Shown here one piece after another: positions 47,675-50,017 of a DNA stretch of 64,000 nucleotides. Every line of letters begins with the position of its first letter. Within the stretch, counting starts at the first letter, position 1. The position numbers and the translations under genes are program-made. The notes beneath the pieces were generated by a model. The model saw nothing but the letters and a program-made list of their open reading frames with translations, was not told the origin of the DNA and did not search any database. Source of the DNA: Bacillota bacterium. Lineage in GTDB: Bacteria; Bacillota; Sulfobacillia; Sulfobacillales; Sulfobacillaceae. The stretch lies in contig JAJYHT010000002.1 in the NCBI GenBank assembly GCA_021784595.1, forward strand, positions 35,186-99,185. The letters are read 5' to 3'.

Positions 47675-49021
47675 ATGTCCAAACGCATTGTGGTCATCGG
47701 AGGCGATGGGGCCGGGATGAGTGCTGCGTCCCAAGCAAAACGGCGCGACCCATCCCTCGACATTATCGCTTTTGAAAAAGGTGCGATCGTGTCCTATTCG
47801 GCGTGAAGCGTTCCCTATTATGTCGGCAGGTTGGTCGACAACACAGAGGAACTGATTGCGCGCACACCCGAGGAGTTTAAAAGCCGCTTAGGGATTGCGG
47901 TTCGGACCCATCATGAAGTGGTCCAGATCGATCGTTCTCGGCAGCGGGTGGCGGTGCAAGGGAGTGGTGGCACCATGTGGGAAAGTTACGATGAGCTTGT
48001 CATTGCGACGGGGTCTGTGCCCATCGTGCCCGCATGGCCGGGGGTAGATTCGGATGGGATTTTTACGGTCAAAACTCTAGAGAATGGCCGCGCTATTCGC
48101 GACTACATCGAGCAGTATCATCCCCGCCACGCAGTGGTAGTAGGCGCAGGCTATATCGGGTTAGAAATGGCCGAAAATCTCCGCCACTTGGGAATAGAGA
48201 CTACTATTCTGGAGCAAAATGGGCAGGTGATGCCCACCATGGACGCCGATATGGCGGAATTTGTCTCCGATGCCCTAAAAGGATTAGGGGTGCGGGTTCA
48301 TCTTCAGGAAGAGGTGGTGGGCTTTGAAGTGTACAGAGGGCGCGTCCAGGCGGTTCAGACTCGGCATGGCTCGGTGCCCGGAGACCTGGTCGTTTTGGGC
48401 CTGGGAGTTCGCCCACAAACTACATTGGCTCAAGAAGCCGGCATTCCTCTCGGCGTCAAAAACGCGATTAGAGTGACCCCGTATCTTATGACGGAGGTAC
48501 CGCACGTTTGGGCCGTGGGCGATGCCACACAAACCCTTCATCAAGTGACCGGATTGCCCAGTTACGTCGCCCTGGCCACGGTAGCCAATAAACAAGGCCG
48601 CATTGCCGGCATGAACCTCAGTGGCGCTTCGATCGCCTTTCCGGGTGTTTTGGGGACGGCCATTACTCGGGTCGGCTCCACCGAGGTGGCGCGTACCGGA
48701 CTCACGTTGGCCGAGGCCTCGGCGGCCGGGATCCAGGCCATAGAAACTCGGATCCAAGCCGAAACGAAACTGGGATATTTTGAGGATGTGTCACCGATGA
48801 CCGTAAAGATAGTCGCCGAAGTTTCCAGCGGCCGGATTCTAGGAGGACAAATTGTGGGCGGCAGCGGTAGCGGAAAGCGGATTGATACCATTGCCACCGC
48901 CGTCAGCGCCAAAATGACGGCGACCCAAGTTGTCGACCTCGATCTCGCCTACGCACCGCCGTTTTCCGACGTCTGGGATCCGGTGCAAATTGCGGCAAGA
49001 ACCCTGGTCTCCAAGATCTAG
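47675..49021 (+). CDS. Candidate selenoprotein: CoA-disulfide reductase/NADH oxidase family with Sec44
   Basis: A 448-residue flavoprotein disulfide reductase if TGA 47804-47806 is read as Sec44. The N-terminal FAD motif VVIGGDGAGMSAASQA, the second Rossmann AVVVGAGYIGLEMAENL and the FAD/dimerisation motif VWAVGDATQT are all present, and the C terminus AYAPPFSDVWDPVQ is typical. Family members have SYxACGxPYY at the redox Cys; here it reads SYSA-U-SVPYY, so the TGA replaces exactly that Cys. The frame is the same before and after. A SECIS-like hairpin starts at 47821. AGGAGGG precedes ATG 47675. The alternative, a pseudogene with one mutation, is less likely given the hairpin and three similar cases nearby. 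Confidence 0.8.
47821..47840 (+). promoter_or_regulatory. SECIS-like hairpin for Sec44
   Basis: TGTCGGC pairs with GTCGACA (one G-U pair) around an AGGTTG loop. It begins 17 bases after the first base of TGA 47804. The GGT in the loop follows the pattern of the E. coli fdhF SECIS loop (AGGTCTG). Confidence 0.65.
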
Positions 49022-49158: not shown

Positions 49159-49944
49159 ATGGATAAAACACCCCAGCTTCCCATTACCCCCATGGCACTG
49201 GATCTGTGGTATGAGGGACCTAGTTTTGTGGTCGCGGACAAACCCCAAGGTATGGCGGTTCATCCCGATCGGGCCGACGGTGAGGACACCTTGGTCAACG
49301 GATTGTTGCAATCGAACCGTTGGCTCGCAGAAATGGAAACGAGTCATGCTCCCGGTGTGATTCACCGACTCATGGCACAAGACCGCGGTTTAGTCTTAGT
49401 CGCAAAGTCCGAGGACATGGCCGAGGCGCTACGCGGACTTTACCGCGAGCAAGCCATTACGTTTTCCTATCGTGTTCGCATGTCTAAAGAGGTAAGGCCT
49501 GTGGCAACGGAACTGGTGACAGTCTTTGACCATCAAGTCTATGACGATATCTCGGTGTGGGATATCGACAGCCCGCTCGGCGATACCGAGCAATTGCGGA
49601 ACGAGTGGCTTGGTGAAGTCAACCATGACGCGTATTTCGTGGGCTACCGGATGGACATTCCGGCGCCGCGCACGCACATTCAGGTGGGATTTGGCGAGCG
49701 GCTTTGGCTTCCCGCCATAGACCTCTACACCGTCCCGACGTGAAGTGTGTGCAACGGGACGAAGGCGTTGCTTTCGTCAAATGGTTTTGCCTATCGCGAC
49801 CACACACTAGACAACGATGCTACCATCGAAGAAATGCGTATGTTGCGCGGGCACGAGCGGGGCATTCCCGTGATTCTGATTAACGGCATAGTCTCCGTGG
49901 GATTTGATCGACATCGATTAAAACGCTCCCTGGGCCTTTATTAA
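49159..49944 (+). CDS. Candidate selenoprotein: RluD-like domain fused to a UxxC glutaredoxin
   Basis: A 261-residue protein if TGA 49741-49743 is read as Sec195. Residues about 12-190 resemble a shortened RluD-type pseudouridine synthase (VVADKPQGMAVHPDRADG; GVIHRLMAQDRG; PRTHIQVGFGERLWLP). Where the family has HRLDxxTSG with the catalytic Asp, this one has HRLMAQDRG. The C-terminal 70 residues are a YruB-like glutaredoxin: DLYTVPT-U-SVC, cis-Pro GIPVILING and GFDRHRLKRSL. The TGA replaces the first Cys of CxxC and lies inside the fold, after its first strand, so it cannot be two separate genes. AAGGAG precedes ATG 49159. A hairpin starts at 49758 and a terminator follows the stop. Confidence 0.8.
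49758..49778 (+). promoter_or_regulatory. SECIS-like hairpin for Sec195
   Basis: A nine-pair stem (GACGAAGGC with GCTTTCGTC, one G-U pair) around a GTT loop. It begins 17 bases after the first base of TGA 49741, which is the spacing expected for a bacterial SECIS. Confidence 0.65.
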
Positions 49945-49978: not shown

Positions 49979-50017
49979 AATGGGGCTCCTGCGGATAACA
50001 CCCGGAGGAGCCCCATT
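49979..50017. terminator. Strong hairpin terminator
   Basis: AATGGGGCTCCT pairs perfectly with its complement over 12 bp. It lies 35 bp after the selenoprotein fusion gene and closes the two-gene unit with the Sec44 flavoprotein. The T-run is weak. Confidence 0.6.

Follow-up and report, generated by a model that had tools for sequence, protein, structure and literature searches.

A predicted selenocysteine-containing fusion of an RluD-like domain and a glutaredoxin in Sulfobacillaceae

Is a TGA within a redox gene a stop codon or a codon for selenocysteine (Sec), and what would a protein do that joins a pseudouridine synthase fold to a glutaredoxin? Both questions are raised by a gene encoding an RluD-like/glutaredoxin fusion in a 64,000-nucleotide stretch of DNA from a Bacillota bacterium of the Sulfobacillaceae (GenBank assembly GCA_021784595.1, contig JAJYHT010000002.1; the whole stretch is hereafter called the window). 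The translation of the window gives a 261-residue frame that contains a single TGA, at codon 195 (Table 1). We favor a reading in which this gene encodes a Sec-decoded fusion acting as a selenium-based thiol reductase, to which we assign a probability of roughly 0.65, with its separate parts held at different degrees of confidence.

A glutaredoxin domain beyond an in-frame TGA

The frame begins at an ATG with AAGGAG just 5′ of it. Its N-terminal part matches the Pfam family PF00849 (pseudouridine synthase) over residues 23-109 with 35.6 bits (cut-off 26.8) and has the fold of the RluA/RluD catalytic module. The C-terminal part matches PF00462 (glutaredoxin) over residues 189-243 with 34.4 bits (cut-off 22.9) and contains both the [CU]xxC motif and the cis-proline, Pro237, of a glutaredoxin. 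An earlier reading of the window from its letters (the original prediction) had held that the TGA takes the place of the first Cys of the glutaredoxin CxxC, in a fold that is otherwise complete. Both statements are borne out, with homologues having either TGA or Cys at this position.

A protein search returned 59 relatives, many of them full-length and many ending at about residue 194. The motif pattern was matched by 54 of 57 close sequences, a number that counts the query, and three did not fit; of the 54, 29 stop right at the site, 23 continue with Cys and two do otherwise. The query itself (P0001), written with C for U, is counted among the 23, so that 22 of these Cys readers are database proteins. 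Because so many members are stored as ending at the site, and some are named pseudouridylate synthase in the databases, the redox half of the family is invisible in annotation.

A scan of genome contigs yielded 21 fusion loci, mostly from Sulfobacillus and unclassified Bacillota but also from Terrihalobacillus insolitus and Bacillus pinisoli, with a stop codon at the site in 15 and Cys in six. Taken together, 48 loci reduce to 29 distinct sequence contexts, 23 with TGA and six with TGC; every stop context is TGA, under a pattern that admits only stop or Cys at the site and that any other residue there would escape. The search for homologues with Cys or Sec (TGA) at position 195, which the original prediction had named as a check, thus recovered both forms. 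A chance stop or sequencing error at 49741 is ruled out by the recurrence of TGA in 23 distinct contexts and by the covariation of the hairpin described below.

Within the family to which the window belongs, the fusion occurs in 22 of 34 genomes at 26 places, of which 19 are full-length with exactly one TGA, six are full-length without a stop and one is partial. Across a phylum-wide sample of 398 genomes, with at most six candidates scored per genome, the full-length fusion was detected in three, all from the same family, and the best match in any other genome (7.6e-24) covers the pseudouridine synthase part only. Among 81 genomes around Bacillus pinisoli, the fusion was found in B. pinisoli itself and in none of the others. 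The loci from T. insolitus and B. pinisoli (L020 and L021, both Bacillaceae; locus labels are ours) carry the fusion in its TGA form, with compensated stems and 34-37% identity.

On a phylogenetic tree, from which the 105-residue L092 was excluded, the Sec/Cys label is forced to switch two times or more, with three switches on the topology obtained. The three Sec rows of the window's group and five Cys rows form a strongly supported clade whose inner order is unresolved. In L003 and L008, stems kept in part (6 of 8 pairs) suggest that Sec is the older state there.

Past the TGA, purifying selection acts on the sequence in the frame of the fusion. Over the 60 codons past the site, dN/dS lies between 0.02 and 0.17 in seven usable pairs of ten, and values of at least 0.7 are obtained when this DNA is read in either of the other two frames. 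The three pairs dropped were L009/L007, which is shifted by an indel and gave 0.30, and two with saturated synonymous sites; the seven kept have rows in common, and in one of them a member is the Cys gene L003.

A covarying hairpin and the selenocysteine machinery

The original prediction had also pointed to a hairpin at 49758 with the spacing of a bacterial selenocysteine insertion sequence (bSECIS). This element, with arms at 49758-49766 and 49770-49778, has held up well: it covaries, and it is degraded in Cys homologues. At least seven of the eight inner stem pairs, with a three-base loop 22-23 nt downstream (whichever offset pairs better), are present in 22 of the 23 TGA contexts and in none of the six Cys contexts. 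The latter retain five or six of eight pairs at the best offset and four to six at a fixed 23 nt. The sole TGA context below seven pairs is L092 (6 of 8), a broken locus. As a background, 7 of 8 pairs are reached at 227 of 26,568 positions in the TGA genes, a figure that takes in the hairpins themselves and repeated loci.

Pairing is seen in 93.0% of cells among 16 distinct 21-base hairpins, and six of the eight pairs change on both sides; the covariation score is 0.352 as compared with 0.135 in shuffles, none of 500 of which scored as high. In L015 and L088 the hairpin has slid against the reading frame by one base, with stem letters changed on both sides; as the encoded residues differ with this slide, part of the protein sequence may be dictated by the SECIS. 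The folding energy of the fusion hairpin is unremarkable (z of -1.09, with 30 of 200 shuffles as good), and z values of -1.09 and -1.63 are weak evidence taken alone, so the case rests on comparison, that is, on conservation and covariation. A scan for terminator-type structures also picked up the hairpin, which, however, lies inside the coding frame. An Rfam scan of the window returned nothing at gathering score.

Genes for Sec insertion occur in the genome of the window. Of the sel genes that the original prediction had named, selB is present, as are selD (L037, G000:C10:22249-23181), which itself contains an in-frame TGA close to its N-terminus, and a tRNA-Sec (72.9 bits; anticodon tca according to ARAGORN). 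A selA match extends over the full length of the model with 474 bits (L035, G000:C33:64781-65866), but the frame of this gene is cut by a TAA. The absence of Cys or Sec homologues and of sel genes, which would have refuted the original prediction, is thus not what was observed. A second match exceeds the tRNA-Sec cut-off (L027, G000:C1:18026-18117; 51.7 bits vs 47) and may be another long-arm tRNA. Beyond this genome, selB is found in all 19 genomes that carry the named loci and in 30 of the 34 family genomes, the four lacking it being also without the fusion, and the Cys forms of the fusion sit in genomes that retain selB.

Several of these results weigh against Sec decoding or narrow its support. 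The TAA lies mid-gene, in frame, in the sole full-length selA match of this assembly, and may be either an assembly error or a real mutation. Eight of the 30 selB-bearing family genomes are without the fusion. The number of pair types in the hairpin is ordinary, 52 of 500 shuffles reaching as many. The two-sided stem changes derive from few lineages (L015/L088, L020/L021 and the window's clade), and the best-pairing loop offset was used for L015 and L088. The TAA in selA lowered our estimate only marginally, since the family evidence is independent of any one genome, and on the comparative evidence we consider it almost certain that the UGA at codon 195 is decoded as Sec.

Two other readings of this codon can be set against these data. 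If the UGA were a true stop, the product would be a 194-residue RluD-like protein, and the glutaredoxin would be a remnant or a separate product started at the GTG at 49747. The 29 of 54 relatives stored as proteins ending at the site and the interrupted selA frame are what such a reading would draw on. It is opposed by the purifying selection past the UGA, by the Cys homologues that read through the site, and by a hairpin that is retained with UGA and degraded with Cys. A start at the GTG would forfeit the first strand of the glutaredoxin together with residue 195, and a separate glutaredoxin from this codon was rejected on these domain grounds. We consider termination very improbable. The chance that the UGA is read as something other than Sec, by near-cognate Trp suppression or under a changed genetic code, appears smaller still and close to negligible: beyond the open frame itself nothing speaks for it, the six non-stop rows among 21 are all Cys with no Trp, the tRNA-Sec with a UCA anticodon, selB and selD are present, and the hairpin covaries. 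Sec decoding thus remains the reading on which the following sections build, and with Sec/Cys exchange, SECIS covariation and the machinery, the fusion family has the kind of comparative evidence that is generally required of a new selenoprotein family.

An RluD-like domain without its catalytic aspartate

The description of the upstream domain as pseudouridine synthase-like, also made in the original prediction, stands as far as the PF00849 match is concerned, but the catalytic Asp of the HRLDxxT motif is not conserved, a point missed earlier. In the protein of the window this position is occupied by Met72, and among the 54 relatives the catalytic column holds Asp in one and another residue in 53. 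The family does have an invariant Asp, Asp75, three residues past the catalytic column, at the Thr of HRLDxxT. Against the NCBIfam model for the 23S rRNA pseudouridine synthase RluD, the protein scores 34.2 as compared with a cut-off of 351, and it differs from that enzyme both in the replaced Asp and in the Sec/Cys glutaredoxin at its C-terminus. Since the catalytic Asp is missing, the RluD-like domain probably does not act as a pseudouridine synthase; that it is a dead one we hold to be very likely. This suggests that a pseudouridine synthase fold lost its catalytic residue and was then taken over for redox work.

Alternatively, the N-terminal domain might still modify or bind RNA, with Asp75 or another residue as the catalytic one, and the Sec glutaredoxin might act as a redox switch or repair thiolated or oxidized RNA. 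Three points tell against a dead enzyme here: the catalytic-column Asp is retained in P0016 and L020, Asp75 could be a displaced catalytic residue, and the second catalytic motif is aligned with uncertainty. The departure from Asp in nearly all relatives, the place of Asp75 three residues on, and a score far below the rluA_subfam cut-off (45.3 vs 192.7 bits) argue in the other direction, and we regard an RNA enzyme as unlikely.

The adjoining flavoprotein and the predicted thiol relay

Directly upstream of the fusion lies a second redox gene with an in-frame TGA, which was absent from the original prediction. It resembles CoA-disulfide reductases, matching TIGR03385 over the full length with 425.8 bits, under the equivalog cut-off of 578.8. 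Its own hairpin shows all seven pairs in four TGA sequences and 3, 4, 5 and 5 of seven in four Cys sequences (eight sequences in total, counted without L103 and L104); with three to five pairs still formed in the Cys flavoproteins, loss of the hairpin with Cys is only partial in this gene.

Table 1. Features of the fusion gene and of the flavoprotein gene upstream of it, in window coordinates.
Feature	Position	Strand	Details	Basis
RluD-like/glutaredoxin fusion gene	49159..49944	+	261 residues, TGA read as Sec195 (predicted)	frame, Pfam, homologues
RluD-like domain, residues ~1-185	49159..49713	+	Met72 at catalytic Asp position; Asp75 invariant in family	
Glutaredoxin domain, residues 186-261	49714..49941	+	motif PT-U-SVC, Pro237 at cis-Pro position	
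In-frame TGA, predicted Sec195	49741..49743	+	6 distinct contexts of homologues have TGC	
bSECIS-like hairpin, 9 bp stem	49758..49778	+	GUU loop 49767-49769, loop start 23 nt after TGA	
CoA-disulfide-reductase-like FAD/NAD(P) oxidoreductase gene	47675..49021	+	448 residues, TGA read as Sec44 (predicted)	
In-frame TGA at flavoprotein active-site Cys position	47804..47806	+	SYSA-U-SVPYYVG; Cys in 4/7 adjacent loci	
Flavoprotein bSECIS-like hairpin	47822..47839	+	7/7 pairs in 4 TGA sequences, 3 to 5/7 in 4 Cys sequences	

In the seven loci at which the two genes are adjacent, their states agree: TGA in the window, L001 and L002, Cys in L003 to L006. A close full-length orthologue of the flavoprotein (at least 50% identical) occurs in 11 family genomes, eight with the active-site TGA (L094-L096, L100-L102, L103 and L104) and three with Cys (L097-L099), and in 11 of 11 its Sec/Cys state is shared by one or more of the fusion copies of that genome. 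Broken flavoprotein frames were observed beside the fusion in L003 and on contig C203 of genome G441 (L092, L106); the fusion copy of G441 is likewise partial, has TGA, and bears the only TGA hairpin with fewer than seven of eight pairs.

How might such a pair work? We propose that the UGA of the fusion is decoded as Sec through the covarying hairpin just downstream, and that Sec195 and Cys198 would carry out glutaredoxin chemistry, reducing a disulfide, a selenenylsulfide or a persulfide. In a UxxC glutaredoxin, the selenolate attacks a disulfide or persulfide, after which the remaining Cys, which here would be Cys198, resolves the intermediate. A redox role of this kind for the UxxC of the glutaredoxin half is highly probable. 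The RluD-like domain would then act as a substrate holder rather than as a pseudouridine synthase. More tentatively, electrons might pass from NAD(P)H to FAD, to Sec44 and on to Sec195, either directly or via a small thiol, for example CoA. As a reductant bacillithiol is improbable, given that BshC was found in none of the 34 family genomes.

Other observations count against coupling of the flavoprotein to the fusion. The two genes adjoin in 7 of the 22 loci compared, all within the window's clade, and a conserved operon across the family was accordingly not found. Ten of the 22 fusion genomes show no close flavoprotein orthologue, and one more, G441, shows fragments only, with TGA; in G436 the flavoprotein has TGA, and of the two fusion copies one has TGA and the other Cys; and the shared Sec/Cys state of the two genes may stem from one event. 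With adjacency confined to one clade, and with the shared state perhaps going back to one event, we keep our estimate low: the flavoprotein is the most promising donor candidate, but that it passes electrons to the fusion is somewhat doubtful. The predicted electron flow is most likely that of a two-selenoprotein thiol relay. As a compact two-gene Sec pair, the fusion and the flavoprotein offer an electron path that is directly testable. The fullest version of this proposal, in which a pseudouridine synthase fold has become the half that holds the substrate in a selenium redox enzyme, in a Sec-to-Sec relay with the flavoprotein next door, replacing glutathione or bacillithiol chemistry and acting on CoA-type or RNA-bound disulfides and persulfides, is speculative, and we think it rather unlikely to hold in all its parts. 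Other fusion loci lie near genes that we take, from reading their sequences rather than from a family search, to be cytochrome oxidase, ctaA and glyoxylate-cycle-like genes.

A related arrangement is reportedly known from a Sec-containing glutaredoxin said to reduce a Sec-containing MsrA, in work attributed to Kim and colleagues in 2011. Going by its title alone, that case likewise has two selenoproteins in tandem, one of them a glutaredoxin. In our system the flavoprotein that we suspect as partner would stand before the glutaredoxin in the flow of electrons, and the glutaredoxin forms part of a fusion with an RluD-like domain.

The component domains have counterparts among listed selenoproteins. 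The review PMC13188914 lists a Sec glutaredoxin (PF00462, UxxC, one Sec), with which the fusion shares the UxxC at the active site and a single, here predicted, Sec, and from which it differs in that the domain forms the C-terminal half of a fusion; on the Uxx_star model NF041212 it falls under the cut-off (38.6 vs 66 bits). The HUGP/GUXX-star fusion, listed there with two Sec, likewise places a Sec glutaredoxin-like domain after an N-terminal part, but its model NF045501 matches the glutaredoxin part only (model positions 169-230 of 236; 23.9 bits vs a cut-off of 325). A Sec CoA-disulfide reductase (TIGR03385, UGxP) is listed as well. The upstream flavoprotein shares the TGA at the active-site position with it, and differs in having USVP, in a score under the cut-off and in adjoining the fusion gene.

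The original prediction knew of no selenoprotein that pairs an RluD-like domain with a glutaredoxin, and neither did we find this pairing in the main text of PMC13188914 or PMC9312934, where the word "pseudouridine" has no occurrence; the whole of Table 1 of PMC13188914 is likewise without a pseudouridine synthase selenoprotein. Relative to the main text of these two reviews, the RluD-like/Sec-glutaredoxin fusion is a new selenoprotein architecture. A literature search for selenoprotein, pseudouridine synthase and glutaredoxin, whose scope excluded most subscription papers, returned no paper combining all three; the passages of PMC5322559 and PMC2746813 retrieved for selenoprotein and pseudouridine synthase treat other subjects, and the archaeal MSR fusions in the passages of PMC6211008 include none with a pseudouridine synthase.

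Three further observations concern the surroundings of the gene and its genome. About 40 bases past the stop codon of the fusion, an inverted repeat noticed by eye (GGGGCTCCT...AGGAGCCCC, about 49982-50016) may be a terminator, though no run of T follows it. The same genome contains a second copy of the fusion (L023, G000:C10:38147-38929), 55% identical and also with one TGA. It also contains a small stand-alone glutaredoxin (L024, G000:C29:48111-48335) with TGA in its UxxC motif (TTPT-U-PHC).
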